In this document: piece after piece, positions 11,591 to 28,446 of the stretch
Position numbering within the stretch: the first letter of the stretch is position 1
Layout of the letters: each line of letters starts with the position of its first letter
Assembly: GCA_903819975.1 (NCBI GenBank)
Contig: CAIJFI010000007.1
Location: 62,001-126,000 of the forward strand
Reading direction: 5' to 3'
Length of the DNA stretch: 64,000 nucleotides
Origin: an uncultured Bacteroidota bacterium
GTDB taxonomy: Bacteria > Bacteroidota > Bacteroidia > Chitinophagales > Chitinophagaceae
Made by a program: the position numbers and the translations under genes
The notes under the pieces: model-generated
Database searches by the model: none
Seen by the model: only the letters and a program-made list of their open reading frames with translations
What the model was told of the DNA's origin: nothing

Positions 11591-11619
11591 AAATATAAAA
11601 AATGGTAAGGTTCTAAAGA

Positions 11620-11787: not shown

Positions 11788-11840
11788 AGTTAATTAATTT
11801 GATTATAAAAGTATAAAAATTAATTCATATTAAATTTTCA

Positions 11841-14800
11841 TTAGGAAACAGCTCCCATCTTTTTTAACAATTTTACATTGGATCTTCTATGCAATAAAGT
11901 ATGAACACCTGCATATAAAATCGGCAAAATAATTAATGTTAAAATAGTTGAAGTAATTAAACCTCCAATTACCACTGTAGCTAAAGGCTTTTGGCTTTCA
12001 CTACCAATACCTGTAGAAACTGCTGCAGGCAATAATCCAATTGCAGCCATAAGTGCTGTCATTACTACCGGACGCACTCTGGAGATGACTCCTTTTTCCA
12101 AAGCATCCCTTAAAGACATTTTAGCTTCTAAATTTTTTCGGAACACAGTGATTAAAATAACTCCATTTTGAATACATATTCCGAACAATGCAATGAAGCC
12201 AATCCCAGCACTGATACTAAAATTCATTCCTCTTAAATGCAATGCCAATATACCTCCTATTAAAGCAAAAGGCACATTCAAAATAGTGAGTGTAGCATCT
12301 TTTACATTGCCGAATAGCATAAATAAAATTAAGAAGATCGCTAATAAACAAACTGGTACTACATTCATTAAAGTCTTGGATGCTCTTTGTTGATTTTCAA
12401 ATTCTCCATTCCATGACATTTTATAACCGTCTGGCAAATGCACATTCTTATTCACCTTTGCTTGAGATTCTTGAATCGTACTTCCTAAGTCCCTACCTCT
12501 TACTGAAAACTTAACAGGAATATATCGGTAGTTATTGTCACGGTATACAAATGCTGGACCTGTTAAAGTTTTAATATTGGAAATTTCACTGATCGGAATT
12601 TTAGAACCATTTTGAGTTGGGATCATTAAGTCCTGTACCTTTTCCTTGGTGTCTCTAAAATTCTTTTGATAGCGAATTCGAATATCAAATTTTCTTTCTC
12701 CTTCGTACAATTGTGTTACAGCTTTACCACCCAATGCCATTTCAATCACACTTTGTGCATCAGTTGTAGTTATACCATATAAAGCCATTTTTTGTTGATC
12801 CAATTCAATTCTAAATTCAGGTTGACCCAAATTTCTTAAAACCCCTAAATCTTCTACGCCTTGCACTGTACTTAATTCGTGTTGTACTTTGTTTGCTAAA
12901 TTATCAAGTGTGTCAAAATTAGGACCAAAAATTTTCACGGCTAAGGATGCAGGAACTCCCGCAACAGCTTCTTCCACATTGTCTCTAATGGGTTGAGAAT
13001 AATTCAATAATAAACCAGGATACTTTACCAACTGCACATTCATGCTGTCGATTAAATTTTCGGTGGTCACTCCTTTCGGCCACTCCGATTTGGGTTTTAA
13101 ATCCACCGCAATCTCCACATTAAAAAATCCTTTTGGATCAGTACCGTCATTGGTACGTCCAATTTGTGCCATCGTGTGATTCACTTCGGGAAACTTTCTA
13201 AGCGTCTCCGTCATTTTATCTGAAATCTGCTTGGACTGCGTTAATGATGCACTCATTGGCAATTGTGCCTTTACCCATAATGCGCCTTCGTCCAATTCAG
13301 GTAAAAATTCATTACCCAAAAATTTAGCCGAGAAGAAAGTTAACATCATGAAAGAAAGTGCAATTAACAAACTTGATCTTGGGAATTTATAAGCACGTGC
13401 AAACAATTTTTGAATGCCGTTTTCAAAAAAGGCAACCACAGGATTGTGTTTTTCTCTTACATTCTTTCTTAATAAAATACTCGATAATGCAGGTACCAAG
13501 GTTAAGGTAAATATCAATGCACCCAACAAAGCAAACCCTAATGTGTATGCTAATGGAGAGAACATTTTACCTTCTACTTTTTGGAAAGCAAAAATCGGAA
13601 TCAAACAAGTAATGATAATTAATTTAGAGAAGAAAATGGCTTTACCCATTTCCGAACCCACTTGTTTAAATAAACCGAGCTTAGCGAGCTTGTTAAACTT
13701 CTCCATGCCCACTTCACGCGCCTTATGATCCAACGCTACATACAATCCTTCCACCATCACCACGGCTCCGTCAATTATAATACCAAAATCAACAGCACCC
13801 ATAGAAAGTAAATTCGCTGTCATGCCTTTTAAACGCATGCAGATAAAGGCGAACAACAAAGCCAATGGGATAATAATACTCACTGTAATGGTTGTTCTCC
13901 AGTTGGCCATGAACAACAATACGATACAGGTAACTAAAATGATGCCTTCAATTAAATTATGAATTACCGTTTCGGTAGCATAGTCCATTAAAGTTGTACG
14001 ATCATAAAAAGGAACCAACTTTACGTCCTTTGGTAAAATAGAATTATTAAGCTCTTCTACTTTTGCATGAATATTTTTTAATACCTGCTCGGCATTTTCT
14101 CCTTTACGCATTACTACAATACCTTCAATCACATCCGATACCGTATCCTTTGAAACAATACCTAGCCTTGGCTTACCTGCTTCATGTACCGAAGCCAAAT
14201 TCTTCACTAAAATGGGCACATTGTTGATTTTTGTAACAATGATATTGTTGATCTCGTCAATATTATTAAGTAACCCAATACCACGCACCACATAGGCTTG
14301 ACCATTTTTTTCAATAATATCTCCACCTACATTAATGTTACTTTTTGCGACTGCATTGTATACGTCAATGGAGGTTAATCCATATTTTAATAATAAATCG
14401 GGATTTACAGCAATTTCAAAACTACGCTCCTCGCCACCAAAACTATTTACATCGGCCACACCTGGTACCGATTTAAATTGACGATCTATCACCCAATCCT
14501 GAATCGTGTACAATTCTCTAATATTACGAATCTTACTTTTTAATGTATAACGATACACTTCCCCTGTTGGGCCATAAGGAGGTTGTACTTCGGGCTTAAT
14601 GCCTTCTGGTAAATCCACATTGGCAATACGGCTCATAATTTGCTGTCTTGCAAAAGCATCGTCAACATCGTCGTCAAATATTAAACGCACATAACTTAAT
14701 CCAAAACTGGAAGTAGTTCTTAAATTAATTTTCTTTTGTACCGAGTTTAACACTGTCTCCAAAGGAATGGTTACAAATTTTTCTACCTCTTCGGCACTTC

Positions 14801-14975
14801 GCCCAGGCCATTGTGTAATAATAATCACCTGCGTATTGGTCACATCGGGGAATGTTTCAATTGGGGTGTTTTCGTAGCTTATAAATCCTATTACACCTAC
14901 CACTAAAGTCATAAAAAACACAAAGTATCTATGCCTTAAAGAGAAGTGAATAATATTCTTAATGAATTTGTTCAT
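11841..14975 (-). CDS. czcA: Heavy-metal efflux RND transporter, CzcA/CusA family
   Basis: A 1044-residue inner-membrane proton antiporter, full length for the family. It has the N-terminal TM1 (RYFVFFMTLVVGVIGFISY), two large periplasmic loops, and the heavy-metal-RND TM4 signature MGAVDFGIIIDGAVVMVEG near residue 400, whose acidic residues belong to the proton path. The C-terminal half carries FIALFGICIQNGVILIT and VRPVVMTALMAAIGLLP. It is the third gene of a C-B-A operon (60-bp gap after czcB). The DFG..D form of TM4 is typical of divalent-cation (Co/Zn/Cd/Ni) pumps, but the metal cannot be fixed from sequence alone. Confidence 0.9.
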   Translation of the reverse strand: MNKFIKNIIHFSLRHRYFVFFMTLVVGVIGFISYENTPIETFPDVTNTQVIIITQWPGRSAEEVEKFVTIPLETVLNSVQKKINLRTTSSFGLSYVRLIFDDDVDDAFARQQIMSRIANVDLPEGIKPEVQPPYGPTGEVYRYTLKSKIRNIRELYTIQDWVIDRQFKSVPGVADVNSFGGEERSFEIAVNPDLLLKYGLTSIDVYNAVAKSNINVGGDIIEKNGQAYVVRGIGLLNNIDEINNIIVTKINNVPILVKNLASVHEAGKPRLGIVSKDTVSDVIEGIVVMRKGENAEQVLKNIHAKVEELNNSILPKDVKLVPFYDRTTLMDYATETVIHNLIEGIILVTCIVLLFMANWRTTITVSIIIPLALLFAFICMRLKGMTANLLSMGAVDFGIIIDGAVVMVEGLYVALDHKAREVGMEKFNKLAKLGLFKQVGSEMGKAIFFSKLIIITCLIPIFAFQKVEGKMFSPLAYTLGFALLGALIFTLTLVPALSSILLRKNVREKHNPVVAFFENGIQKLFARAYKFPRSSLLIALSFMMLTFFSAKFLGNEFLPELDEGALWVKAQLPMSASLTQSKQISDKMTETLRKFPEVNHTMAQIGRTNDGTDPKGFFNVEIAVDLKPKSEWPKGVTTENLIDSMNVQLVKYPGLLLNYSQPIRDNVEEAVAGVPASLAVKIFGPNFDTLDNLANKVQHELSTVQGVEDLGVLRNLGQPEFRIELDQQKMALYGITTTDAQSVIEMALGGKAVTQLYEGERKFDIRIRYQKNFRDTKEKVQDLMIPTQNGSKIPISEISNIKTLTGPAFVYRDNNYRYIPVKFSVRGRDLGSTIQESQAKVNKNVHLPDGYKMSWNGEFENQQRASKTLMNVVPVCLLAIFLILFMLFGNVKDATLTILNVPFALIGGILALHLRGMNFSISAGIGFIALFGICIQNGVILITVFRKNLEAKMSLRDALEKGVISRVRPVVMTALMAAIGLLPAAVSTGIGSESQKPLATVVIGGLITSTILTLIILPILYAGVHTLLHRRSNVKLLKKMGAVS

Positions 14976-15034
14976 AATATTTTTTGAAACTTAAATGAAA
15001 AAAGCAGCTCTAGTTAATTAAAAGAAGGACAGCT

Positions 15035-16135
15035 TTATTGATTCAATAGTTGTTGAAATACCAATAATTGATTTTTTACAATTACTTTTTCTCCTGCTAT
15101 AATACCGGCATCCAAATAAGTAATATCGCCTGCTGTCTTATTTACATTTACTTCCGCAATACGCATTTCACATTTGCTTTTGTATACCACTACATAATTC
15201 TTGCCATTCAAATCAATTAATGCACTTGTAGGAATCGCCAATACATTATGAGTAGTTTTGCTTTTTACAAATATTTTCGCAAACATTTCGGGCTTTAATA
15301 AAAATTGCGAGTTGTCTAACATAATTCTTGCTCTTAAAGTTTTATTCATTGGGTCTAAAACTTCACTTAGTTTTTGAATGGTACCATCAAAAACTTTATC
15401 GGGATATGCCAATACCCTTACTTCCACATGATCTCCCTCTTTTACTTTTGGAATATCAATTTCGTACACATTGGCATTTACCCAAACATCATGTAAATCT
15501 GAAATGGTATATAAATAGTCGCCCATATCTGGACGGATATAATTTCCTTCGCTTACTTTCTTTTCAACAATATAGCCATTAATGGGTGCGGCAATACTAT
15601 AACTACCTCCTGCATTGCTATTTGCACCTCCGTTTATATGCAAAGCACTTTCTAATTTTGTTTTAACTGATTTTGCTTTTTCGTAATTCTGCTTTGCTTC
15701 AGTGTATTCTTTTTCACTAGCAATCCCATTCTTAAACAAGCCTTCTTGATTATCCAATTGTCGTTTAGCAATAATTACATCGGCATTCGCACTTGTAATG
15801 TCGGCATAGTTGCCTGCAATCTCGGCACTTTTAACCACAGCTAAAGTTTCTCCAGCTTTGACCTTATCGCCTAAAGACAATTTAGCTTCTACTACTTGTC
15901 CACTGCTTCTTGGAAATATTTTTACCACTTTATTCTCGTCAAAACTTATTTCACCACTTAATTGTAAATCTTCGTTAGAAACAATAATTTTTGCAGTATC
16001 CAAGGAAATAATTTTTTCCATTGAATCACTTAAACAAAATTTAGCATCCTCTTTAGCCGCTTCGGGTTTTTTACTTTCACAACTGTTAAGCCCTACTAAA
16101 GTCAAGGCACAAAAAACATATACTATTCGCTTCAT
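15035..16135 (-). CDS. czcB: Efflux RND periplasmic adaptor, CzcB/CusB-like lipoprotein
   Basis: A 366-residue membrane-fusion protein with a lipoprotein signal (VGLNSC, then ESKKPEA). It has a split biotinyl-lipoyl-like domain (FPRSSGQVVEAKLSLGDKVK and IAAPINGYIVEKKVSEGNYI), an alpha-helical hairpin (about 115-165) and the beta-barrel/membrane-proximal part (KPEMFAKIFV). It couples the inner-membrane pump to the TolC-type channel. No His-rich metal-binding extension is present, unlike some CzcB proteins. It sits between czcC (9-bp gap) and czcA. Confidence 0.9.
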   Translation of the reverse strand: MKRIVYVFCALTLVGLNSCESKKPEAAKEDAKFCLSDSMEKIISLDTAKIIVSNEDLQLSGEISFDENKVVKIFPRSSGQVVEAKLSLGDKVKAGETLAVVKSAEIAGNYADITSANADVIIAKRQLDNQEGLFKNGIASEKEYTEAKQNYEKAKSVKTKLESALHINGGANSNAGGSYSIAAPINGYIVEKKVSEGNYIRPDMGDYLYTISDLHDVWVNANVYEIDIPKVKEGDHVEVRVLAYPDKVFDGTIQKLSEVLDPMNKTLRARIMLDNSQFLLKPEMFAKIFVKSKTTHNVLAIPTSALIDLNGKNYVVVYKSKCEMRIAEVNVNKTAGDITYLDAGIIAGEKVIVKNQLLVFQQLLNQ

Positions 16136-16144
16136 AAATTCTTT

Positions 16145-17428
16145 TTATTTTTTAATTATATCCATTCCAGCGTGGTAATTCAACTCCTCGCTAACTAATT
16201 GTAAATTTAATTTTGATTGAAAATGTTGGTTCTGCACATCCTTATAAGTATCGAAAAAGTCCATAAACTCTAATAAGTTAATTTGTTTGTGCTCATAGCT
16301 AGTCAACACATTATTAAACATTTGAGTATACTTATTATAAAAAGTTTGCTCGTCATTATTGGCCACTTTTAATACTACCAATAACTTACTAAATGCGTTA
16401 CTGATATTGTTTTGCAGTTCAATATCGGCATTTTGTGCAATTGCTTGCTGTTGCTTCACTGTATAATCGGCCGACTTAATGTTGCCTTTGTTACGATTAA
16501 ACACAGGTACAGGAAGTGTGATTCCCAATCCTACATAATGCGGAATATAGTTACTATTGTGGTCGTACTCTGGGCCAAATGTAATATCAGGCACAGCCAA
16601 TGCTTTTTGATAACTCAAATTTTGTTGCTGATATAATAATTGCATTTTTTGCAATTCATAATAAGGATTGTTTTGTTTTGCAATGGCTACAATTTCTTGG
16701 TCACCTGAAAAACCCACTTTTACCGAAACAAAATCATCGGTAGGTAATAAAAACACATCTCCTTTTATTTGCAAAGTTGTTTTTAAACTATTCTCTGTAT
16801 CAGAAATTTGAGTTGTTAAATCCGCAATTTCTTTTTCTAAGGAAACCAACAATGATTGAATTCTTAAGTATTCTTTTTGTGAAATATTGCCTGCATTAAA
16901 TTGACCAGTCATCCCTTTAAACAATACTGTTAATTGCTGATAACTTTGCTGTGCAATTTGTTTGTTTTTGATTAACTGCATTAAAGTAAAATAATTCGAT
17001 CTTAGATCATATTTTAAATTACGCATTAAATCATTCAATTGCAATTGACTCATTTTAGCATTGGTACTTGCCAAATTAATGAGCTTACCTCTCTTGCCTG
17101 CCGTTTTTACCAATTGTTGAAACTGCACAAAATATTGTCCCATAGGTTGGCCTGTAATGGGATCCTTACCATGTTGAAAAAACTTATTGTTGGTATACAC
17201 GTTCTGATCGGTTACTAATATTGGGTTGTCCCAAACCTTAGCTTGCTCAATAAGTGCTTTATTGGCATCTACATTATAACCTGCAGCAATTAATAACAAA
17301 TTGCTATCTAAAAACATCTTTTCGGTCTGCTTTAAACTCACTCTTATCGTATCCGCTTGTGCATTTAAATTCAATAATCCAAAACACATCAATAGTACGA
17401 ATCCGACTTTAAGTTTCACTTTACACAT
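16145..17428 (-). CDS. czcC: TolC-family outer-membrane efflux protein, CzcC-like
   Basis: A 427-residue protein with signal peptide (ending NLNAQA) and the two helical/beta repeats of outer-membrane efflux proteins (coiled-coil segments at about 165-235 and 325-400; GLGITLPVPVFNRNKGNI in the second half). It forms the outer-membrane exit duct of the CzcCBA pump and is the first gene of the operon. A -7 box lies 56 bp upstream and an inverted repeat lies in the leader. Confidence 0.9.
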   Translation of the reverse strand: MCKVKLKVGFVLLMCFGLLNLNAQADTIRVSLKQTEKMFLDSNLLLIAAGYNVDANKALIEQAKVWDNPILVTDQNVYTNNKFFQHGKDPITGQPMGQYFVQFQQLVKTAGKRGKLINLASTNAKMSQLQLNDLMRNLKYDLRSNYFTLMQLIKNKQIAQQSYQQLTVLFKGMTGQFNAGNISQKEYLRIQSLLVSLEKEIADLTTQISDTENSLKTTLQIKGDVFLLPTDDFVSVKVGFSGDQEIVAIAKQNNPYYELQKMQLLYQQQNLSYQKALAVPDITFGPEYDHNSNYIPHYVGLGITLPVPVFNRNKGNIKSADYTVKQQQAIAQNADIELQNNISNAFSKLLVVLKVANNDEQTFYNKYTQMFNNVLTSYEHKQINLLEFMDFFDTYKDVQNQHFQSKLNLQLVSEELNYHAGMDIIKK

Positions 17429-17453
17429 AATGGGATAATTTACAAAAAACTAA

Positions 17454-17472
17454 GGCGCTGATAGTCAGCACC
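17454..17472 (-). promoter_or_regulatory. Inverted repeat in czc operon leader
   Basis: GGTGCTGACTATCAGCGCC on the minus strand: an 8-bp stem (one G-T pair) around CTA, between the putative -7 box and the czcC ATG. It could be an operator or an RNA hairpin. No regulator gene (ArsR, MerR or two-component type) lies beside the operon. Confidence 0.4.
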
Positions 17473-17483
17473 ACTCGTTTTTG

Positions 17484-17491
17484 CAAAGCTA
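17484..17491 (-). promoter_or_regulatory. Bacteroidota -7 box TAGCTTTG for czcCBA
   Basis: Matches TAnnTTTG on the minus strand, 56 bp upstream of the czcC start. No matching -33 TTG at the usual spacing. Confidence 0.45.
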
Positions 17492-17564
17492 CGCCATATT
17501 AAAAGAGTTGCCTTGACTATCCATTACAAATGACAGAAAATTAACAAAAATCTAAAAAAAATAA

Positions 17565-17579
17565 GGCCAATTTAAGGCC
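17565..17579 (-). terminator. Weak hairpin with T-run after the barrel fragment
   Basis: GGCC / GGCC stem around 7 nt, followed on the minus strand by a T-rich tract (TTATTTTTTTTAGA). Probably the original terminator of the outer-membrane protein whose 3' end survives at 17591. Confidence 0.35.
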
Positions 17580-17590
17580 ATGATAAACAA

Positions 17591-17771
17591 TTAGTTAGCG
17601 GCTTCTTCCATACCTCCGTCTTCTTTTCGATCTTTTTTAAATTCTAGCTTTCCAAAACGCCAATTAAAGCTAATTCCGAAGGATCTTGAAGGGACATATC
17701 GAATGTTGTTTTGTGGCACCCATTTATCAGGCATATCCTTTGAAGGGGTGGAAATCTCTCTAATAAAAGAC
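17591..17771 (-). pseudogene. C-terminal fragment of an outer-membrane beta-barrel (TonB-type) protein
   Basis: About 60 residues. RYVPSRSFGISFNWRFGKLE is the typical last-strand segment of Bacteroidota outer-membrane barrel proteins of the CarboxypepD_reg/OMP_b-brl class, followed by an acidic tail. There is no upstream part: homology begins abruptly at a junction near 17771, where the opposite strand carries an integrase fragment. It is a decayed remnant, not a functional gene. Confidence 0.7.
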
Positions 17772-18185
17772 ATCAGATTATCCTTATCAGGAACTAGAAG
17801 GAATAATATACGTCCTATTGAGGTAGTAATTAACCCAAAACTTCAAAAGTTAATTGATAAAATTGGAGATAAGGAGAGTCAATACGTCATTGGACAATTA
17901 AAACAGGTAAATTATACAGAAGAATACCTATTAGAAAGAAATAAAAAACTAAAAGCAAGATATAATAGTCGACTTAAGAAACTCGGTAAAAGACTTGGAT
18001 TGACTCTGTCTCTTGACATTTCAATGGCCAGAGACGCATACGCCAATACCCATAAGAGAGCAGGTACCAACCCACTAAAAATTAGTGAGAACATGAACCA
18101 TTCAGACCCTCGCACCACTACCCTTCACTACTTGGATAACTTTGAATTTGATTCAGATGTTGATGTGAATGATGTTTTATTATAA
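17772..18185 (+). pseudogene. C-terminal remnant of a Bacteroidota tyrosine recombinase (integrase)
   Basis: The recognisable part begins around the codons for IRLSLSGTRRNNIRPIEVV and runs to the stop. NIRPIEVVINPKLQKLI, then SMARDAYANTHKRAGTNPL, ISENMNHSDPRTTTLHYLDN match the catalytic C-terminal half of phage-integrase-family recombinases, with the late His (MNHS) and the Tyr nucleophile (HYLDNF). The N-terminal SAM-like domain and the first catalytic Arg are missing, because the frame runs back into antisense sequence of the barrel fragment. It cannot be active alone. It is the only integrase sequence in the array. Confidence 0.8.
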
Positions 18186-18213
18186 TATTTGTATATTAGT
18201 ACAAAGAGATTTT

Positions 18214-18657
18214 ATGGAAATCATTACAGCAAATAATATTAGTGAGTTTATAAAAATTATAGAGACTCATACATTCGTAAATGACGATACTCTGTTTAGA
18301 GGACAAAATAATTCAGAATGGTTTTTACATCCTAAAATAGCAAGAAATGGTTTTCAATTTAGAAGGAATATCGACTTAGAAGAAAAAATGCTTGAAACTT
18401 TTAAAAGGCATTCTAACCAATTTATTAGTAAGGATTTAAACAACTATTGGGATTATCTGGTACTTGCACAGCATTATGGAATGTCAACTAGATTATTGGA
18501 TTGGACAAAAAATCCATTAGCAGCATTATGGTTTTGTGTAAATAGAAAGCCAAATAAAGTTGAATTTGGAAGTGTTTGGATTCTTAAAGTTGAAGATGGC
18601 TACTTTTTAAAAGCATCTGAAATCGATTCTGAAATAAAAAGAAGACAACTAGCCTAA
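18214..18657 (+). CDS. FRG-domain protein, short
   Basis: 147 residues from the ATG at 18214 (MEIITANNISEFIKI). It has the FRG-domain signature: LFRGQNNSEWFLHPKIAR near the N-terminus and LAQHYGMSTRLLDWTKNPLA, LWFCV in the middle. FRG domains are usually found in 250-300 residue proteins of phage and mobile regions, several near defence genes, with unknown activity. Here the protein stops soon after the GSVWIL strand, so the C-terminal third is missing. It starts 29 bp after the integrase fragment. It may be truncated. Confidence 0.7.
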   Translation: MEIITANNISEFIKIIETHTFVNDDTLFRGQNNSEWFLHPKIARNGFQFRRNIDLEEKMLETFKRHSNQFISKDLNNYWDYLVLAQHYGMSTRLLDWTKNPLAALWFCVNRKPNKVEFGSVWILKVEDGYFLKASEIDSEIKRRQLA

Positions 18658-18675
18658 CTGACTGATAGACAAAAA

Positions 18676-18697
18676 AAGCCATCATTTCTGATGGCTT
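18676..18697 (-). terminator. Terminator for the GyrI-like/XRE/DUF2975 transcript
   Basis: A 9-bp stem AAGCCATCA / TGATGGCTT with loop TTTC, followed on the minus strand by TTTTTTTG. It lies between the converging FRG and GyrI-like genes. The remainder of 18658-18812 shows nothing assignable. Confidence 0.7.
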
Positions 18698-18812
18698 GTC
18701 CAGTGGGCTCCCCTTACAAACGAAAGATGCAACTATAATGCGATGATTGAGTATGTGACTATCAGGAAATTGAAAGGTTGAACTTCGTGCAAGTTTACAG
18801 GAAGTCTATTAC

Positions 18813-19292
18813 TTATTTTGCTTTTATAGGTATCCAAATTTCTTCCTCTGATGATGGGTCATTGTTTTTGTATTTCTCACCCAAAACTTCAAAATGTGCT
18901 CTATCATCTAGAATATAGTTTTAATTTGGAACCCATTCGGTATAAATGTAATGGAAAAAATATGGGGCTCCTGAACTCATTCCTTTGTAATTAAAAACAG
19001 CATAAAGTCCGCTTGATAAATTATATGTTTCCATTTCATCTGGCACTTTATTGAAATTTTCAACCTCTACCGTGGCCCATCTTTCAAATTCATTAGTAGA
19101 TTTGAAATTTATAAAGTGATTAGGAGCATATACAACTAATGATATTAGATCGTTTGTCAAAGTATTGGTTATTTCTTTTCTTCTTGGCATAAAACTACCC
19201 CATAATTCTCCTATTCTATAATCCGCATAACACATTGTCATTCGTTTTCCAACCAATTTCTTCTCGTTTATTGTTTCTATTTTTGGTATCAT
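18813..19292 (-). pseudogene. GyrI-like effector-binding protein interrupted by in-frame TAA
   Basis: A frame of about 160 codons with one internal TAA at 18921-18923. Before it is a GyrI-like/AraC-effector-binding fold (start MIPKIETINEKKLVGKRMTM, later YNLSSGLYAVFNYKGM and YTEWVPN). After it, in the same frame, comes the conserved family ending NYILDDRAHFEVLGEKY then SEEEIWIPIKAK. The stop falls in the loop preceding the last strands. The first 123 residues could still be made but would lack the final conserved strands. It lies 4 bp after the XRE regulator gene and in the same direction. Confidence 0.8.
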
Positions 19293-19296
19293 TTCA

Positions 19297-19503
19297 CTAT
19301 TTATTTACAAACTCTAATATATCAGCAGGTTGACAATCTAAAACCTTGCAAATTGCCTCCAATGTGCTAAACCTTATTGCTTTTGCTTTTCCTGTTTTAA
19401 GAATAGAAAGGTTTGCCAATGTTAATCCAACTTTTTCAGACAATTCATTTAATGACATTTTTCGTTTTGCCATCATCACATCCAAGTTTACTATAATTGG
19501 CAT
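19297..19503 (-). CDS. Small XRE-family (YozG-like) transcriptional regulator
   Basis: 68 residues, essentially one Cro/CI helix-turn-helix: MMAKRKMSLNELSEKVGLTL with recognition helix LANLSILKTGKAKAIRFSTL and VLDCQPADIL at the end. This short type is regularly encoded beside DUF2975 membrane proteins, as here (3-bp gap). It probably represses its own operon. Confidence 0.85.
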   Translation of the reverse strand: MPIIVNLDVMMAKRKMSLNELSEKVGLTLANLSILKTGKAKAIRFSTLEAICKVLDCQPADILEFVNK

Positions 19504-19506
19504 AGG

Positions 19507-20061
19507 TTATACAGTTAAGTCGTTTTCAGATTGTATTTCAATTCCCTTCTTAAATATCATTGCAAATATCAGAAGAATGACACCCATAAATAACCACACA
19601 TCTCCACCTTCAAATTTTAGTTGTTGAAGAGAAGGTAAAATTTTGTCATTACCCATTATTTTCAACCAATTAGAAAAATTATTCCCCCAATAAATAAAAA
19701 GGCCAATTCCAAATGACAAATAAGATAGATTAAAAATGTATTTACCCATAGTTTCATTGAAAGGTGTTGATAGATTTAATTTCTTTTTGTGAAAAAGGTT
19801 GACAATAAAATAAAACAATATGGACTTCAACACTGCAACAATTATCATTAGAACAACTAATGATATAAAATGACTTTCGTTGAATTGATACAATTCATAT
19901 AAGTTCATCCCACCCCAGAATTTGGAGGATGCTACAGGATTAATAAAAATCGAGACAAAGGCATTTACTATCAAACCGCCAGACTCTATACATAACCCAA
20001 TAAAAATATACCAAGCAAGTACATTTAGCACTTTAAAAAGAAAATCGGTTCCTTTTGACAT
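19507..20061 (-). CDS. DUF2975 membrane protein
   Basis: 184 residues with four predicted transmembrane helices (about 10-35, 55-80, 100-125 and 150-172) in the pattern of DUF2975. First gene of a three-gene unit with the XRE regulator and the broken GyrI-like gene. Function unknown; the pairing with an XRE regulator is widespread. Confidence 0.8.
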   Translation of the reverse strand: MSKGTDFLFKVLNVLAWYIFIGLCIESGGLIVNAFVSIFINPVASSKFWGGMNLYELYQFNESHFISLVVLMIIVAVLKSILFYFIVNLFHKKKLNLSTPFNETMGKYIFNLSYLSFGIGLFIYWGNNFSNWLKIMGNDKILPSLQQLKFEGGDVWLFMGVILLIFAMIFKKGIEIQSENDLTV

Positions 20062-20146
20062 AATTCAAAAAATTTTATGTCACAAATATGCACAATATTT
20101 ATTGCTTATCAATAAATATTTATTTATAAATATAAAATTTTGACAT

Positions 20147-20181
20147 AAAAAAGGGTTATACTATCAAAGTATAACCCTTTT
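20147..20181. terminator. Strong bidirectional hairpin
   Basis: A 15-bp stem (AAAAAGGGTTATACT with AGTATAACCCTTTTA and 5-nt loop), T-rich on both strands. It separates the DUF2975 gene start from the att unit that follows. Confidence 0.7.
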
Positions 20182-20229
20182 ACTTTATTCTGCTCCCTCT
20201 TCTGAACTTGAACTAAGAAATGACAAAAA

Positions 20230-20442
20230 CCTCACGCAAACCTCACCCAAAAACAACAAAGGACCCACGATTTAACGTAAGTCCTTGATTTTCATGTAGC
20301 GAGACCGGGATTTGAACCCGGGACCTCAGGGTTATGAAGATTTTTTGAGAAAATGAAAGCGTTGATTTGTAATGCGTTATATTTTGACAAAACGGAAAAC
20401 GACCGATTTTAACCGATTTCAGGGGGTGTTTTCCTCACGCAG
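20230..20442 (-). repeat. att unit A3 (complete)
   Basis: In order on the plus strand: CCTCACGCA (20230) and CCTCACCCA (20241); the 28-bp tRNA terminator hairpin (20259-20286); linker GATTTTCATG; the 42-bp tRNA-Met 3' fragment (20297-20338); the arm of about 104 bp, closing with GGTGTTTTCCTCACGCAG. The 80 bp from hairpin to anticodon loop equal 36036-36115. Divergence from the tRNA begins exactly where the 5' anticodon stem should start. Confidence 0.9.
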
Positions 20443-20473
20443 GGGATATTTCAAAAATTAAGTAAATAGATAA

Positions 20474-21265
20474 TTATTGTGTAACGTTTAAAATTAGCGA
20501 GTCAACACCAAAAGAGGTAAAAATGCCAAAGCCATTTTGAATATTCGTAACAGGGTTAGTAATGTTTAAAGAACTCGTGCCTGTTGATTTATATAATGCC
20601 GCATATTCTATGTTAGCTTTATATAAATAAACATGATGTAATCCATAATAAGAGAATGAGTTAAATGATAAAGAAGCTGTATTTTCTTGAGTTGGGGGTC
20701 TTGAAAATCTAGGTCTTTGATTGGCCGTATCACTACTAATAGAAACAAGTGAGGATTCCATACATTTAGCAGCTATGAAATAATAGCTTTGGTCATTGTT
20801 GGTCCAGGAGTATACAACAGGGCTAGGAAAAGTCATTCCAGGGGTAAATCTAGAGCCAAATTGAGGAATTGCAATCGATGTAGCACTTCCTGTAAAGCCA
20901 ATAGGCTTTGATGGCACAATAGTCTCTGCTGAAATTGGCATATTGTTATAAGTAAATGATAATTTATAATCATTCCCTTCTTTAACTATTTTAGTAGTGT
21001 CTTGATAAATGCCATTTCCTATTCCTTTTAAAGTGGTAGGTACATTATTTATGTAGACTATCACCGTTTGCCCATCAATATAAGTTGGGTTGGTTGCATC
21101 TTCATTTACAGAAACAGGGAGCGATAGTTTTACCGAAATTGGGCCTCCTGCAATTAAATAGGATTCCACAACAGGCATTTGCAAGGTTGAAATCACCCTT
21201 ACTTCATTTTTGGTACAAGCGGTGGCAAATATAGAAATCAATATTGTATATAAAATATTTTTCAT
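20474..21265 (-). CDS. DUF4249 domain lipoprotein
   Basis: 263 residues with lipobox ATAC (Cys17) followed by TKNEVRVIS, then beta-rich DUF4249 sequence (VESYLIAGGPISVKLS; PTYIDGQTVIVYINN) and the typical ending FGIFTSFGVDSLIL. Shorter than the 387-residue paralogue at 1400 but complete at both ends. It starts 9 bp after the TonB receptor gene; probable surface partner of that receptor. Confidence 0.85.
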   Translation of the reverse strand: MKNILYTILISIFATACTKNEVRVISTLQMPVVESYLIAGGPISVKLSLPVSVNEDATNPTYIDGQTVIVYINNVPTTLKGIGNGIYQDTTKIVKEGNDYKLSFTYNNMPISAETIVPSKPIGFTGSATSIAIPQFGSRFTPGMTFPSPVVYSWTNNDQSYYFIAAKCMESSLVSISSDTANQRPRFSRPPTQENTASLSFNSFSYYGLHHVYLYKANIEYAALYKSTGTSSLNITNPVTNIQNGFGIFTSFGVDSLILNVTQ

Positions 21266-21274
21266 TGTTAATTG

Positions 21275-24010
21275 CTATTTGAATTTATAGGTAAATGTTA
21301 CATTTGGGGTGATTCCTAAATAATTTTTAGTGGTTTCCACTATGTAACTACTTTGAGAAGAGAAAATCTTATACCATTCGTTCTTCCTGTTATACAAATT
21401 AAATACTGAAAAACTTATACTACCAGAACCATGATTTTCAAATTTAATATTATAAGTTGCTGCAACATCCATTCTATGATAATCAGCTAGTTTATTGGCA
21501 TTTTTATCAGATACTATAAAGAAAGTTCTTGTAGTTCCATCTGGTAAATTTTGTGCATAGCCCCCATCGATGGATGTATAGGGTTTACCGGAAGCATAAA
21601 TCCAAGTACTTGAAAAATCCCAATTATGCCATTTGTAAATACCCACAATTTTAAATTCGTTTCTTACATCATTGTCTGCATAATAGTCTCCAACTTTATA
21701 AGCAGGGTAATTATTAGTTACTTGTGCAATAGTATAAGCAATCCAGCCATTTAATTTTCCACTTTTCTTTTGTAATAAAAAATCAACACCTTTTGCTTTA
21801 CCAGTTCCTTGCACATAAGTTTCCACTGGAGTTAAAGTGTTGGTTCTTTCAGGCCCGCCAAATTGCCTATTAATTCTCAATGAATACTCACTCATTCCAT
21901 ATAAATTTTTATTATATGCTTCTACGTCAAATAAGTAGTCTTTATTTTCATAGCTTCCTCCCAAACTCACTTGGTCATTATAGGCAACTGGAAGTTTATC
22001 TCCATCGGATAGAACCCAAAAATCCCTACTGCCTTGTTGAATATCTTCACGTATTACTCTTTTTATGAACTGATAATTTCTTCCAACGGATCCTTTAAGC
22101 AAAATTTTGTCAGTTAAATTAAAAGTGGCGTTAACACGGGGTTCGGTATAATATTGATGTGTAGGTTCAAAATAATTAAACCTGCCCCCAATAGTCATTT
22201 TAAACAACCCATATATTTCAATTTTATCCTGTATATACCCTGCAAGCAAATTTCCATTGGTGTGTCTATCTATAATGGTAGAGGTATCATTTTGAGCATA
22301 TTTATAGCTAACATCAAAATGATTTACCTGTCCACCAAATTCTAATTTATTTAATTCATTGAATTTGTATTCAAAATCTGATTTGACAGAATAATCTAAC
22401 AACTCATTGTTTTCAAAAGTTCCAGTTTTAAAATTAATAGTGGAGTCGTTTCTTATAATTGTTCCTCCATTACTTAAGTTTCGTTCACTGTAATAATTAG
22501 AAAAACTTGCTAAAGTATTTGAATAAAGTTTGGGCGTCCATCTTCTTGACCATTTTGCACTTGCACCAGTATTTCCCCAAGTAGTTAAATCGGAATTATC
22601 AAAACTTAAATTAACGCCAGTATTATTGAAATTGGAAGGGGGGTTAATCTTGGTTGAATTATCTAAATCATCACTTCCGCTAAAATAACTAAATGAGATA
22701 ATGTCTTTTTTATTGGGTCTATAGGTATATTTTGCATTAAGATCATAAAAATAAGAAGCCAATTGTGAGCTGTTAGAAGCTCTAAATCTTCTAAAACCAC
22801 CACCGCCAGCAGGACTAGCTGCAGCAGGATTAAATTGCTTAAAAATCATATCATACAATGGTCCCTTATAGCTTCTTCGTCCAGCAACAAACAATGTTGA
22901 TTTATCATTGAGTGGAGTTTCCACAAAACCATTCACACTCATCATACTAACATCTCCTCCAAAGTTTAACCCTTTGGTAGATCCTTCTTTACCAGTAAAT
23001 TCGGCAACACTACTTAATCTGCCACCATATTTTGCATCAAACGCCCCCTTGTACAATTGGACGTCTTTGATAGCATTAGAATTAAAGGCACTAAAAAAAC
23101 CAAACAGATGATCAACATTATACACTGTGAAACCATCATACATTACTAAAGACTGATCTGGTGTACCTCCACGAACATATAAGCCAGCAGAATTTTCGTT
23201 GGCAGCACTTACACCAGGCATTAATTGTAACGCTCTTAAAATATCTTTCTCCCCCAAATTTGGCAATACATTTAATTTTGCAGGGGTGAGTTTTATTACA
23301 CCCACTTTATCATTTGCTTTTAGAATATTGGGGATTTTAGAAAATACAACCACTTCACTTTGATACATTTGAGGTTGTTCCAATTCAAAAATCATATTAT
23401 TCACCTGCGACTTTGGTGTAAGAAAGTAATCGATTGGTTCGTAACCAACATAACTGATAGTTAGCTTAACAGTATCATTGGGGACATTTGTGATGGTAAA
23501 CAAACCATCCACATTGGAAGTAATGCTTGTTTTTGAAACCGCAATTTTAATATTTGCATAGGGTAAACTTTCCCCAGTTCTTTTATCAATTATTTTACCT
23601 GTTAGCGTGAAATTATTTTTTTCAGGTGCTCCTTTGTATTCTCTTACCGCTTGTTGACTTACAGTAACATTAATTAACTTAGGATCCACATCTTTAAATT
23701 TATCAATTAGATAAATAGTGCCCACATTGTTAATGATATATTTAGATTTCGTGAGATTGCATATTTTTTTAAGTGCATCTGAAAGTTTTAAATCTTCAAT
23801 ATCTAATTGTTGCGGTTCTAAAGCTGAAAATTTTACAGTGTCGTAATTAAATTTTAAATCGTACTTGTTGCTAATTTTTATAATCAAATCGGAAACAGTT
23901 CCAAAATGTATAACAGATATATTTTTTCTTAAGACCGAGTCTATTTTGTTTTGCCCATAACCTGTGACACTTATAACTGCAAACAAAAAAAAGAGAAATT
24001 TTTTTAACAT
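21275..24010 (-). CDS. TonB-dependent receptor with STN and CarboxypepD_reg-like domains
   Basis: 911 residues: signal peptide, STN-like domain (about 30-110; SDLIIKISNKYDLKFNYD), carboxypeptidase-D-like domain (about 130-220; GKIIDKRTGESLPYANIKIA), plug (LGEKDILRALQLMPGVSA; LYVRGGTPDQSLVMYDG), then the barrel ending VTFTYKFK. The STN domain normally allows signalling through an anti-sigma factor, but no FecR/FecI pair is nearby. Same architecture as the receptor at 2568. Ligand unknown. Confidence 0.9.
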   Translation of the reverse strand: MLKKFLFFLFAVISVTGYGQNKIDSVLRKNISVIHFGTVSDLIIKISNKYDLKFNYDTVKFSALEPQQLDIEDLKLSDALKKICNLTKSKYIINNVGTIYLIDKFKDVDPKLINVTVSQQAVREYKGAPEKNNFTLTGKIIDKRTGESLPYANIKIAVSKTSITSNVDGLFTITNVPNDTVKLTISYVGYEPIDYFLTPKSQVNNMIFELEQPQMYQSEVVVFSKIPNILKANDKVGVIKLTPAKLNVLPNLGEKDILRALQLMPGVSAANENSAGLYVRGGTPDQSLVMYDGFTVYNVDHLFGFFSAFNSNAIKDVQLYKGAFDAKYGGRLSSVAEFTGKEGSTKGLNFGGDVSMMSVNGFVETPLNDKSTLFVAGRRSYKGPLYDMIFKQFNPAAASPAGGGGFRRFRASNSSQLASYFYDLNAKYTYRPNKKDIISFSYFSGSDDLDNSTKINPPSNFNNTGVNLSFDNSDLTTWGNTGASAKWSRRWTPKLYSNTLASFSNYYSERNLSNGGTIIRNDSTINFKTGTFENNELLDYSVKSDFEYKFNELNKLEFGGQVNHFDVSYKYAQNDTSTIIDRHTNGNLLAGYIQDKIEIYGLFKMTIGGRFNYFEPTHQYYTEPRVNATFNLTDKILLKGSVGRNYQFIKRVIREDIQQGSRDFWVLSDGDKLPVAYNDQVSLGGSYENKDYLFDVEAYNKNLYGMSEYSLRINRQFGGPERTNTLTPVETYVQGTGKAKGVDFLLQKKSGKLNGWIAYTIAQVTNNYPAYKVGDYYADNDVRNEFKIVGIYKWHNWDFSSTWIYASGKPYTSIDGGYAQNLPDGTTRTFFIVSDKNANKLADYHRMDVAATYNIKFENHGSGSISFSVFNLYNRKNEWYKIFSSQSSYIVETTKNYLGITPNVTFTYKFK

Positions 24011-24023
24011 TAATTTTTTTGTG

Positions 24024-24031
24024 CAAAACTA
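24024..24031 (-). promoter_or_regulatory. -7 box TAGTTTTG upstream of TonB receptor
   Basis: Matches TAnnTTTG on the minus strand, 14 bp before the receptor ATG. No -33 partner seen. The rest of 24011-24224 is AT-rich and shows nothing else. Confidence 0.45.
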
Positions 24032-24224
24032 GTCAAGATTGAATACTATATATAATAATCTTAACATAAAATATTGTTAAGCTAGATTGACCTTAATAAT
24101 AACTTACAAAATACTTAAATTAAACTGAATAAGAGTTATTACAAATAGCTTCTCTAAAAACACATTAAACCCATTGTAGGTTTTTAGGTCAAATAATATA
24201 CCCTAAAAAACTCAAAAGGTATTT

Positions 24225-25115
24225 ATGATTCAAACCTACCGAGAAAGACCTATCTCTGAAAATGCTAAATTTTCAATCATAATACCAAGTTGGAATAATC
24301 TAGAATATTTAAAAATTTGTGTTCAAAGCATTCGGAAAAATTCCAGCTATAATCATCAAATTATAGTACATGTAAATTCAGGAATAGATGGTACACTAGA
24401 ATGGATTGAATTACAACCCGATATCAATTATACTTATAGCTATGAAAATATTGGCGTTTGCTACGCCATAAATTGCGCTAGGAGTATGGTTAAAACAGAT
24501 TATATTGTATACGTTAATGATGATATGTATTTATGTCCAGAATGGGATAAATTTTTGTTAGATGAAATTTCAAAAATTGGACATCAAAAGTTTTTTTTAT
24601 CATCAACTGTTATCGAACCTGTAGCATCAAGTAGTTGTGCTATTGAAAAAAATTTTGGAACTAGTTTTAAAGATTTTAATGAAGATGCCTTATTAAAAGA
24701 ATTCAAGCATTTCAAATTTAATGATTGGGCGGGTGCCACTTGGCCTCCCAATTTGTTACCTACAAAATTGTGGGACGCAGTGGGTGGATACAGTATTGAG
24801 TTTTCGCCAGGCATGTATTCAGATCCAGATTTTTCAAATAAATTATGGAAAGCCGGTGTTAGGTATTTTAAAGGAGTTAGTGCGAGCCGAGCTTATCATT
24901 TTGGATCAAAATCTGTCAAAAGAGCAAAATTAAACAAAGGCTATTATCAATTTATTAATAAATGGGGATATACATCAAGTTTTTTAACTAAAAATATACT
25001 CCATAGGGGGGAAATTTTTAACGGACCAGTTTCTAATTTAATCATCCCATACAATATCAGAATTAAACAATTTTTTAAACGAATTATTTCTTCCTTTAAA
25101 AAGTTAGAAATTTAA
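24225..25115 (+). CDS. Glycosyltransferase family 2
   Basis: 296 residues, GT-A fold: FSIIIPSWNNLEYLKICVQS, HVNSGIDGTLEW, and the DXD-like motif VNDD (97-100) for metal-nucleotide-sugar binding. A later WAGATWPPNLLPTKLWDAVG segment and GMYSDPDFSNKLWKAGVRYF are typical of the acceptor half. No transmembrane segments, so cytoplasmic. It stands alone between a divergent TonB gene and a fossil att boundary. Sugar and acceptor cannot be predicted. Confidence 0.85.
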   Translation: MIQTYRERPISENAKFSIIIPSWNNLEYLKICVQSIRKNSSYNHQIIVHVNSGIDGTLEWIELQPDINYTYSYENIGVCYAINCARSMVKTDYIVYVNDDMYLCPEWDKFLLDEISKIGHQKFFLSSTVIEPVASSSCAIEKNFGTSFKDFNEDALLKEFKHFKFNDWAGATWPPNLLPTKLWDAVGGYSIEFSPGMYSDPDFSNKLWKAGVRYFKGVSASRAYHFGSKSVKRAKLNKGYYQFINKWGYTSSFLTKNILHRGEIFNGPVSNLIIPYNIRIKQFFKRIISSFKKLEI

Positions 25116-25147
25116 CTACAGTAGAAATTTCAGAATTTAGATTTAGT

Positions 25148-25180
25148 GTTTTCGGAAAGAAAAGACAAAAACCTCGTGCA
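25148..25180. repeat. Probable fossil att boundary
   Basis: GTTTTCGGAAAGAAAAGACA followed by AAAACCTCGTGCAG resembles the left flank of att unit A3 (GACAAAAACCTCACGCA) and the stretch at about 27030-27050 (GGTTTTTGGAAAGAAAA). The tRNA part is absent. It suggests that the GT2 cassette and the MgtC-ParB-DUF4337 cassette were once separate. Confidence 0.4.
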
Positions 25181-25273
25181 GAATTAATTAAGAAGTCTTT
25201 ATTACCTTCATTAGAAATTATTTAGTAAATTATGATTTCAAAAGTGCTTATCATTCAATTTAAAACAAACATT

Positions 25274-25903
25274 ATGAATAATGAATTAATAATTCGTTTT
25301 GCATTAGCAATTCTATGGGGTGGTATTGTTGGAGCTGAAAGACAATATCGTAGTAAATCTGCTGGTTTTAGAACAATGATAATGATATCATTAGGTGCAT
25401 GTTTTTTTACTATTATATCCAAAATTATAGGTGGAGAATTAAATGGTGACAGAATTGCCTCGAATATTGTTTCCGGAATTGGTTTTATTGGAGCTGGGGT
25501 AATTTTTAGAGGTGATAATAGAGTAAATGGTATTACAACTGCTGCAACCATATGGGTAGTCGCTGCTGTTGGAATGGGGATAGGTGCTGGCTACTATTTT
25601 GCAGCGTCATGTAGTAGTATTTTAATGATCTTAATTTTAGCAATCCTTCCATATATAGAAAGATTTATTGATGAACTCAATCAATCAAAAGAATATTCAA
25701 TTGTAACATTATATAATAAAGAGTCCATTCATCAAATTGAATCTTTATTTAAAGAAAATGATGTAAAATATAGACTAATTAGAATAAATAAAATTGGTGA
25801 TAAGGTTGATTTTCAATGGGAAATTCAAGCACATAAAAAAAGACATGAAAGATTATCACAATTGCTTATGAATGATGGAAAAATATTAGAATTAAAAAAT
25901 TAA
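25274..25903 (+). CDS. MgtC/SapB family membrane protein
   Basis: 209 residues from the ATG at 25274, chosen because the family motif starts directly there (NNELIIRFALAILWGGIVGA, ERQYRSKSAGFRT). An in-frame ATG at 25232 would add 14 residues without similarity. Four or five transmembrane helices include GIGFIGAGVIFRGDN and GITTAATIWVVAAVGMGIGAG, followed by a cytoplasmic ACT-like C-terminal domain. MgtC proteins modulate Mg-related physiology and F-ATPase in pathogens; the role here is unknown. Five base pairs before the ParB-like gene. Confidence 0.85.
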   Translation: MNNELIIRFALAILWGGIVGAERQYRSKSAGFRTMIMISLGACFFTIISKIIGGELNGDRIASNIVSGIGFIGAGVIFRGDNRVNGITTAATIWVVAAVGMGIGAGYYFAASCSSILMILILAILPYIERFIDELNQSKEYSIVTLYNKESIHQIESLFKENDVKYRLIRINKIGDKVDFQWEIQAHKKRHERLSQLLMNDGKILELKN

Positions 25904-25907
25904 TTCT

Positions 25908-26261
25908 ATGAAAAATCTATGGTTAAAAAACCCCGAAAAACATGACTTCCCTGCTGCAAACGACTTTCTTGAATTATTATTTTCAACAACCAAAGCAAAA
26001 GGTTTTGTTGATAATTTAAAAGAAGCAAATACAGTAAATAAGAAAGCTAAGGATATTTTAAGAGCAAGTGAAATGCAATTGTTACCCAAAAATAATATTC
26101 ACGTAAAAGAAAATATCAAAAAATCAAAAGATGGCATAATGCTATCACCTATCTTACTTGTGAGATCTGAAAATAAATTAATAATTGCGGATGGTTATCA
26201 TAGATTGTGTGCCATATATTATTTATCCGAAGATTTAGAAGTCCCTTGCAGAATCGTATAA
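25908..26261 (+). CDS. ParB-like (Srx-fold) domain protein
   Basis: 117 residues. The C-terminal half has LSPILLVRSENKLIIADGYH followed by RLCAIYYLSEDLEVPCRIV, the ParB/sulfiredoxin-like nucleotide-binding signature. The N-terminal half is charged and helical. Too short to be a chromosome-partitioning ParB: it lacks the HTH and dimer domains. It follows mgtC by 5 bp, so the pair is probably co-transcribed. Function unknown. Confidence 0.6.
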   Translation: MKNLWLKNPEKHDFPAANDFLELLFSTTKAKGFVDNLKEANTVNKKAKDILRASEMQLLPKNNIHVKENIKKSKDGIMLSPILLVRSENKLIIADGYHRLCAIYYLSEDLEVPCRIV

Positions 26262-26421
26262 TAGGATAATTAGTGTAAATTAAAAAGGCATTCAAAGTAA
26301 TCAAAACTATTTTAGTATACCTTATTTCCTTTTGAATGAATATGCTGTTGTAATAACAAATGATTAAAAGTATTTGTATTTTTAATTACCGCACAAAATA
26401 TGCAATTAAAAAATAAAGAAC

Positions 26422-26946
26422 ATGGATGAAATAGAAGTACCTACCGAACACCTACATGAAACAATTCATGAGCAAGTTCATAATGCAAGTAATATCAAAG
26501 AGCAAAAATGGTCAATGCTTGTTGCTATATCTACTGCACTAATGGCAGTACTAGCAGCAATATCAAGTTTATTTGCTGGACACAATTCAAACGAAGCAGT
26601 TATTAATCAGATCAAAGCTTCAGATCAATGGGCTTTATACCAAGCAAAAGGTATTAAAGCTGAAATTAAAGCAATTAAAATTGGGAACATCCCTTTGGAT
26701 ACTGTGGAATATAATAGATATAAAAAGGAGCAATCAACTATTAAAGAAAAAGCGGAAGAACTGCAAAATGAATCTAATTCACATTTAGAAATTGAAAAGA
26801 AGTTTGCAAAAGCGGTTACGTTTTTTCAAATTGCAATTGCTATTTCTGCTATTTCTATTTTAACGAAACGAAAATTCCTTTGGATAATTAGTTTATTTAT
26901 AGGTGCTTCTGGCTTATTATTTTTGATACAGGGAATTGATTTTTAG
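26422..26946 (+). CDS. DUF4337 membrane protein
   Basis: 174 residues. Acidic/His N-terminus (PTEHLHETIHEQVHNA), one transmembrane helix at about 33-55 (VAISTALMAVLAAISSLFAG), the family segment SDQWALYQAKGIKAEIKA, a coiled-coil, then two helices at the C-terminus. DUF4337 is an uncharacterised inner-membrane family. The gap 26262-26421 before it shows no feature. Confidence 0.8.
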   Translation: MDEIEVPTEHLHETIHEQVHNASNIKEQKWSMLVAISTALMAVLAAISSLFAGHNSNEAVINQIKASDQWALYQAKGIKAEIKAIKIGNIPLDTVEYNRYKKEQSTIKEKAEELQNESNSHLEIEKKFAKAVTFFQIAIAISAISILTKRKFLWIISLFIGASGLLFLIQGIDF

Positions 26947-27076
26947 AGTTTAAATTTCAAATTCTAAAAAATATAGTCTAATCGCCATCGACCCTAAAAT
27001 CATGACCACTATTGAAGTTGCTGCTATGAATGTGAGGGTTTTTGGAAAGAAAAAAAATTGATTAAAATAAAATCAA

Positions 27077-27302
27077 TCTCACGCAAAAACCTCACGCAAA
27101 CCTCACGCAGAAACAACAAAGGACCCACGATTTAACGTAAGTCCTTGATTTTCATGTAGCGAGACCGGGATTTGAACCCGGGACCTCAGGGTTATGAAGA
27201 TTTTTTGAAAAAATGAGAGCGTTGATTTGTAATGGGTTATGTTTTGACAAAACCGAAAACGACCGATTTGGACCTAATTGAGGGGGTGTTTTCCTCACGC
27301 AG
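27077..27302 (-). repeat. att unit A4 (complete)
   Basis: TCTCACGCA, CCTCACGCA, CCTCACGCA at 27077, 27090 and 27101; hairpin 27119-27146; tRNA-Met fragment 27157-27198; arm 27199-27302 with CCTCACGCA at 27293. The arm differs from A3 by scattered substitutions, including ones that destroy any shared reading frame, so it behaves as a non-coding conserved element. The gene-free stretch 27303-27474 after it shows nothing else. Confidence 0.9.
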
Positions 27303-27474
27303 GGTGTTTATAATATAAATGATTGATATATAGCTTACCTTTTAAAAGTAAATCATACACTCTATTGCAATTCTAACGCAACAGCTCTATTTACAATTCT
27401 TGTAATCACTATCATTCCTAAGACTCTTATTAAATCATTGAGATAGGCAATACCCTATTTCCAAACCAACACGT

Positions 27475-27978: not shown

Positions 27979-28001
27979 TTTTGAGTTTGAAAAATTCGAC
28001 T

Positions 28002-28032
28002 GAGACCTCTAGCAATAGGGGTCTCTTTTTTT
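28002..28032 (+). terminator. Rho-independent terminator of the NTF2-like gene
   Basis: Stem GAGACC / GGTCTC extended by imperfect pairs around a short loop, followed by T7. It lies 24 bp after the stop and inside the cassette, before the next att unit. Confidence 0.85.
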
Positions 28033-28126
28033 AAAAAAAGAATGAAATGTGATAGTCAAGAATATATAAGTTTTTTTAATTTGGGAACTAAGTTTCTAAT
28101 ATTTTATGACGTAAATAATTTGAGGG

Positions 28127-28330: not shown

Positions 28331-28446
28331 AGGTTTATTAATTATTATAATAGAAAAAATAGGTATTTTAAAAATTTAAAATTGCTATTTTTAAATACTG
28401 GCGAATTGAAGGGAAACAATTATTAAAGCTAATTAAAATCAAAACC

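Follow-up and report, generated by a model that had tools for sequence, protein, structure and literature searches.

The lake bacterium considered here is a Sediminibacterium-type member of the Bacteroidota with a genome of 2.3 Mb. The window, the whole 64,000-bp stretch of DNA that was analysed (G000:C7:62001-126000), was compared with genus neighbours, namely Sediminibacterium and other Chitinophagaceae metagenome-assembled genomes (MAGs). It contains one functional tRNA-Met gene, the 3′ half of which is found in seven exact 43-bp copies, comprising six pseudo-cores and the real gene. Read on the plus strand, this core extends from the 3′ end of the tRNA to the anticodon loop and is repeated at 8060, 10898, 20296, 27156, 28184 and 29108; its length had originally been given as 42 bp and is corrected here by one. 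Most of the repeated units, referred to below as att units, also carry a copy of the tRNA terminator hairpin, and an orphan copy of this hairpin lies at 7163. Tandem repeats of the CCTCACGCA type, which we call arms, stand to the left of the core in four units of the window, and a single right-side copy is present in five. The tRNA gene, the att units and the associated traces of an integrase gene are as follows.

36073 to 36147, minus strand: functional tRNA-Met (CAT) identified by ARAGORN, the putative attB target; 36073-36115 is the 43-bp core common to all units.
36036 to 36063, minus strand: tRNA terminator hairpin (fold -16.3 kcal/mol, z -5.1).
8060 to 8206, plus strand: pseudo-core 8060-8102, an exact 43 bp of the tRNA-Met 3′ half, and right arm 8103-8206 with CCTCACACA at 8197.
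10797 to 10940, plus strand: att unit with variant arms at 10797, 10809 and 10821, terminator 10850-10877 and core 10898-10940, without a right arm.
20215 to 20445, plus strand: the att unit originally flagged, with arms at 20230 and 20241, terminator 20259-20286, core 20296-20338 and a right arm to 20445, with CCTCACGCA at 20433.
20215 to 20223, plus strand: integrase-end trace AAGAAATGA (K-K-stop), adjoining the arms at 20230 and 20241.
25100 to 25183, plus strand: internal att relic in cassette C (20296-27155), consisting of an integrase tail KVRNLTTVEISEFRFSVFGKK and a decayed arm CCTCGTGCA.
26981 to 27046, plus strand: the final ~20 codons of a 422-aa integrase, preserved as a remnant (IAIDPKIMTTIEVAAMNVRVFG; tblastn E 7e-4, aa 401-420, 60%), directly 5′ of the arms at 27077.
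27077 to 27302, plus strand: att unit with arms at 27077, 27090 and 27101, terminator at 27119, core 27156-27198 and right-arm CCTCACGCA at 27293.
28143 to 28333, plus strand: att unit with a degenerate left arm, terminator at 28147, core 28184-28226 and right-arm CCTCACGCA at 28321.
29042 to 29237, plus strand: att unit with arms at 29042 and 29053, terminator at 29071, core 29108-29150 and a shortened right arm with CCTCACGCA at 29225.

The cores delimit six cassettes of unrelated content, listed here without strand.

8060 to 10897: cassette A (2.8 kb), FG-GAP and secreted proteins.
10898 to 20295: cassette B (9.4 kb), a CusA/CusB/TolC-type efflux operon (11841-17428), FRG, GyrI-like, HTH and DUF2975 proteins.
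20296 to 27155: cassette C (6.9 kb), fused from two; DUF4249, a TonB receptor and a glycosyltransferase, then MgtC and DUF4337.
27156 to 28183: cassette D (1.0 kb), a single lipoprotein gene (27475-27978).
28184 to 29107: cassette E (0.9 kb), a single DinB-family gene (28447-28983).
29108 to 36072: cassette F (7.0 kb), two TonB receptors and a PepSY protein; a homologous cassette is found in G112 (L192).

The array continues leftwards past the window to about C7:56069, reaching a total of ~42 kb, and one relative (G010) presents the corresponding empty site, in which the tRNA and its terminator are present and the arms are absent. The locus thus has the composition of an additive tRNA-associated island, in which variable cassettes have gathered at a tRNA gene and every cassette border carries a copy of the tRNA end. 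Between the orphan terminator and the core at 8060 (7154-8060) there is a gene for a polyvalent-protein kinase (7335-7952); a duplicate of its start lies at 8263, with 94% identity over 226 bp.

The original prediction was that the short repeats on both sides of the core are arm-type sites of an attP. The tandem left copies that it placed at 10797/10809/10821, 20230/20241, 27077/27090/27101 and 29042/29053 are all present, some of them as variants (CCTCACCCA at 10797 and 20241, CCTCACTCA at 10809 and 10821, TCTCACGCA at 27077), as are the right-arm copies at 8197, 20433, 27293, 28321 and 29225, the first of which reads CCTCACACA. Two further copies, at 35968 (CCTCACGCA) and 36024 (CCTCACACA), had been overlooked, and both lie beside the real tRNA. 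Not every unit is fully flanked: the core at 10898 has no right arm, those at 8060 and 28184 lack clean tandem left arms, and the right arm of the core at 29108 is 20 bp shorter. With at most one mismatch, the window holds 19 occurrences of CCTCACGCA where 4.05 are expected, and none of 100 shuffles reaches 19. It had been laid down beforehand that a motif common genome-wide would count against the prediction; exact CCTCACGCA occurs 17 times in the genome (2 for the reversed control motif), and 14 of these copies belong to att units, 12 in the array on C7 and 2 in a solo cassette on C13, leaving 3 at unrelated places. The C13 cassette (L024:5796-10888), 5 kb in size, lies outside a tRNA and encodes a BlaI-type regulator and an M56 peptidase/amidase; its junctions carry the anticodon-arm sequence GACCTCAGGGTTATGAATCCTG, the left one retaining only GACCTCAGGGTTATGAA. 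No empty site was found for it, as no relative spans both of its flanks.

A search of 300 relatives with the 221-bp unit yielded matches at E <= 1e-20 that extend past the tRNA core in ~65 of 147 same-genus genomes, by our own count, and 66 distinct cores were gathered from all fetched loci. Upstream, the arm copies are placed at distances of 55, 66 and 78 bp from the core (gaps 11 and 12), the commonest upstream 9-mer being CCTCACGCA itself (36 of 66 cores), and the right-arm copy is found exactly 94 bp past the core in 41 of 49 cassettes. In non-redundant alignments, the two inner left arms hold ~1.9 bits per column against 0.3-0.4 just outside, and the right arm 1.7 against 0.5; the rows were picked by their arm columns, which biases the arm values upward and leaves the sharp drop outside unbiased. 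Because conservation falls so sharply beyond the outer arms, the motif marks the left and the right border of the conserved cis region. The layout is that of a lambda-type attP, with a crossover core between repeated arm-type sites that differ from it in sequence. T-stem pairing is retained in 69 of 71 cores through several base-pair sets, which fits a requirement that every core, once inserted, make up a functional tRNA.

A recombinase gene that lies beside these sites was found in the relatives. When matches to Phage_integrase other than Xer were inspected in 15 array-bearing genomes, they included a 422-aa tyrosine recombinase; the end of its gene is followed, after 5-12 bp, by three arm copies and then by the terminator and the tRNA core. 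This arrangement, an attP beside its cognate integrase gene, occurs at L098, L099, L100 and L102-L105, and the integrase loci occupy the same chromosomal place, beside genes for an FAA hydrolase and a peptidyl-tRNA hydrolase. Scanning the genome collection gave 16 integrase loci, and the arm motif tracks the integrase tree, being CCTCACGCA in L098, L099 and L105, CCTCACACA in L100 and CATGACACA in L102-L104. Recombinases with exactly CCTCACGCA at their own attP, which the prediction had called for, are thus available in L098/L089, L099/L087 and L105. At L102:3057-3089, coding sequence and arms overlap, the three CATGACACA arm sites being formed by the last codons of the integrase (HDTIHDTIHDTE). 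A profile of the family matched in 40 of 147 genomes, some of the matches being weak Xer hits, and a full or near-full copy is present in ~13 by our own count. Many of the matches span no more than the final 10-31 codons, immediately 5′ of the arms. The same profile search found no copy of the family in the host genome, and the integrase was not found in IMG/VR or in phage or plasmid collections. Tandem CCTCACGCA copies in seven viral contigs were taken as chance, as tRNA core and right arm are absent there. Among the PF13102 integrases listed across the genus, none could be paired by eye with att units on the same contig. Several autonomous elements are accompanied by a 189-aa minimal tyrosine recombinase consisting of the catalytic domain only (L087:3976-4545, L089:5202-5771, L095:9868-10437), which also occurs in the host genome, on C18.

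The Pfam Phage_integrase score of the 422-aa protein is just under the cut-off, and the protein has no sequence match in the PDB. R262, R369 and Y400 are invariant, position 366 is S or K and the usual box-II His is absent. Four residues of the N-terminal domain, C18, C21, C28 and H30 (C-x2-C-x6-C-x-H), are also invariant and could possibly form a metal knuckle. An AlphaFold2 model, built on a 15-row alignment and of moderate confidence (pLDDT 73.5, pTM 0.46), has an N-terminus of three strands followed by a helix, and a Foldseek search with this model returned full-length lambda Int complexes as the top PDB matches (E 1e-9). The N-terminal domain would bind the arm sites, for which the covariation of arm motif and integrase clade is indirect evidence. 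Sites for recombination directionality factors (Xis/RDF) are typically also tandem direct repeats at helical spacing, and the CCTCACGCA copies could accordingly be read as bound by an RDF or another accessory protein rather than by the integrase, while still forming part of attP. The element genes could encode such a protein, for instance in a 126-aa ORF just upstream of the integrase, and a wHTH RDF has been described at the attP of another integrative element (PMC11963761). We consider this reading improbable, since the motif flanks the core left and right and varies along the integrase tree, and since the modelled N-terminus, moderate as the model is, resembles an arm-binding domain and has its best fold match in full-length lambda Int.

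The arm-site reading is also favoured by a second system. An integrase paralogue clade (L107-L112), ~41% identical, carries CTAGCGCA-like arms and is located at the initiator tRNA (tRNA-fMet). The order in these loci is integrase stop, CTAGCGCA-like arms, hairpin, 5′ half of the initiator tRNA and its upstream region, with a further TAGCGCA copy beyond the upstream region in four of them. Measured from the middle of the anticodon loop, arm centres lie at -110, -98, -87 and +105 in the tRNA-Met system and at -102, -89 and +103 in the initiator-tRNA system, so the spacing is nearly conserved despite another motif and another tRNA. In L112, the other end of the element is an intact initiator tRNA (duplicated parts are, for example, L112:25-163 and 10414-10625), and the element therefore appears to replace the 5′ half and the upstream region there. 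This second system also bears on whether the motif has a function of its own. The 221-bp unit is 71-95% identical among its five window copies, which makes RecA exchange plausible, and the host genome lacks the integrase; the motif might then be a passenger of ~220-bp att repeats that were copied or spread by homologous recombination. Such a reading has very little probability in our estimation, given that conservation stops sharply at the outermost arm, that the integrase gene abuts the arms and that nearly equal spacing recurs with a different motif and tRNA. The integrase-adjacent arms, the motif shift between subclades, the paralogue spacing and the fold match to lambda Int together uphold the proposed likeness to arm-type sites of lambda-like integrases.

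The array, its arms, the integrase beside arms in relatives, their covariation, the integrase remnants and the sharing of cassettes between species can all be read from the sequence. On this basis, it is highly probable that CCTCACGCA represents the attP arm-type sites of a lambda-type tyrosine recombinase with two-site binding, and that the locus is a tRNA-built array of trans-mobilisable cassettes. Each unit border would be an att site, and the joined ends of a cassette would give an attP with three arm sites, the tRNA terminator, the tRNA-Met 3′ half up to the anticodon loop as the crossover region, ~100 bp and one arm site. In autonomous elements of related species, the integrase gene stands immediately beyond the triple arm; its product would recombine this attP with the anticodon-loop sequence of tRNA-Met, and the incoming element would swap in a tRNA 3′ half and terminator, so that the tRNA stays functional. 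Strand exchange within the anticodon loop is suggested by the end positions of the repeats and, weakly, by the left junction of the C13 cassette. The array would have grown by repeated insertion at the tRNA, and neighbouring cassettes would fuse as the att sites between them decay. RecA recombination between the ~220-bp repeats may reshuffle arrays too, and the host array may be immobile at present because the genome has no integrase copy. Also weighing against the proposal are the moderate model, the absence of PDB sequence matches, the missing box-II His, the units armed on one side only and the C13 cassette, which lies outside a tRNA and for which no empty site was found.

The cassettes have the hallmarks of cis-mobilizable elements (CIMEs), which have lost integration and transfer genes, keep attL and attR, and can accrete in tandem at one gene end through later insertions (PMC5704250, a review). 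Here and in many relatives, they are flanked by attL and attR and have no functional integration genes, and no relaxase or transfer genes were noticed among the annotated element and cassette proteins. Integrase remnants of 2-31 codons adjoin the arms in many cassettes, including the three traces in the window. As only these tails remain of the integrase gene beside the arms, the cassettes would be deletion derivatives: cargo would have taken the place of most or all of that gene, both sets of arms would have persisted, and movement would depend on an integrase provided in trans, as in CIMEs. Cassette B also contains, at 17703-18185 and adjoining the FRG-domain gene, a C-terminal piece of an unrelated tyrosine recombinase; it aligns poorly with the 422-aa integrase and was therefore rejected as a remnant of that gene. 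Fusion is visible in cassette C, where the relic at 25100-25183 sits exactly where a separate cassette of G048 (92%) ends (window 25183), which indicates that two cassettes were joined and the inner att lost. Copies of the second half of cassette C in G025 and G052 show 98% identity; for its first half the figure is 96% (G050), as it is for cassette E (G020). The chromosomal flanks beside the same tRNA are only 84-93% (G025) and 74-82% (G050) identical, and those cassettes have therefore moved between species, which is consistent with CIME mobilisation in trans or in cis.

A row of small single-gene cassettes with unrelated functions, all at one locus, also recalls an integron, with IntI acting on attC sites. 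This possibility is negligible, as the junctions are built from a tRNA half, a terminator and arm repeats rather than attC, lambda Int ranks above VchIntI in the fold search, the recombinase is not IntI and cassettes can measure 7-23 kb; an integron cassette array was accordingly rejected on junction structure. An element in G112 is 23 kb long and bears an integrase and restriction-modification genes. In G080, a NiFe-hydrogenase cluster of ~12.7 kb (L188:4380-17177) lies between tRNA-Met cores and CCTCACGCA sites. More tentatively, and with the balance tipped slightly against it, the tRNA and arm sites might sustain an integron-like economy across the genus, in which an integrase family found in few genomes serves a shared pool of non-autonomous cassettes. 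Cassettes would be born when DNA joins the integrase 3′ end beside the arms and would grow by fusion when an inner att decays, and the sister system would act likewise at the initiator tRNA, where the part exchanged would be the 5′ half with the promoter.

Tandem tRNA cassette islands are, to our knowledge, known in several streamlined aquatic bacteria, where integrase-less cassettes usually have no assigned recombinase or recognition sites. The additive flexible genomic island fGI1 of Alteromonas (PMC4119200) and fGI-2 of ‘Ca. Methylopumilus’ (Methylophilaceae), with its repeated tRNA-Lys ends (PMC10872708), share with the present array a tRNA target, a variable number of cassettes and, in part, their cargo (metal efflux and hydrogenase clusters); going by the parts of their descriptions available to us, the identification of arm sites and the pairing of integrase to site distinguish the array described here. 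Tycheposons, as far as they are outlined in PMC10872708, are likewise tRNA-bounded, with a tyrosine recombinase and variable cargo, but the cassettes arrayed here are much smaller, and the likeness is one of description, not of integrase kinship. The ssrA islands of Dehalococcoides are tandem, bounded by short copies of an RNA-gene end, variable in cargo and equipped with an integration module in some cases only (PMC3146451), as here; they depend on a serine recombinase and a tmRNA target, in contrast to the tyrosine recombinase, arm sites and tRNA-Met of the present system. The CIMEs of PMC5704250 are also att-bounded remnants stacked in tandem at a gene end, the difference being that here many, often single-gene, cassettes (0.9-9.4 kb) form one array, that the phenomenon is genus-wide and that integrase remnants reveal the origin. 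In lambda Int attP and in the sites of IntDOT/NBU1-type integrases of Bacteroides, too, directly repeated arm-type sites flank the core crossover on both sides, and these integrases have a separate N-terminal arm-binding region, which the present protein may share, to judge from the moderate model. Set against them, the present family has a sub-cut-off Pfam match, no sequence homologue in the PDB and the N-terminal C-x2-C-x6-C-x-H, and its arm sites are common to many non-autonomous cassettes. Our literature search found no paper on Sediminibacterium integrases, tRNAs and genomic islands together. What is new here is thus an integrase family with covarying arm sites, a deletion series and visible cassette fusion; tandem tRNA cassette islands as such were already known.

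The presence of sites, matching integrase and deletion intermediates in one genus makes the spread of single-gene, integrase-less cassettes directly testable, and the co-changing pairs of integrase and arm, with near-fixed spacing at two tRNAs, constitute a natural data set on how arm-binding domains choose their DNA. The integrase gene beside this platform of arms and tRNA core in close relatives would also largely account for the role of the short repeated motif. In the units of some relatives, a hairpin-rich repeat of ~200-320 bp is found between tRNA terminator and core (L132:8689-8915; L136 ~3723-3990, minus strand; L123 ~799-1060, minus strand; L135:2580-2924), and it ends in a terminator-like hairpin of its own, AAAAAGCCTGTCAC..GTGACAGGCTTT.
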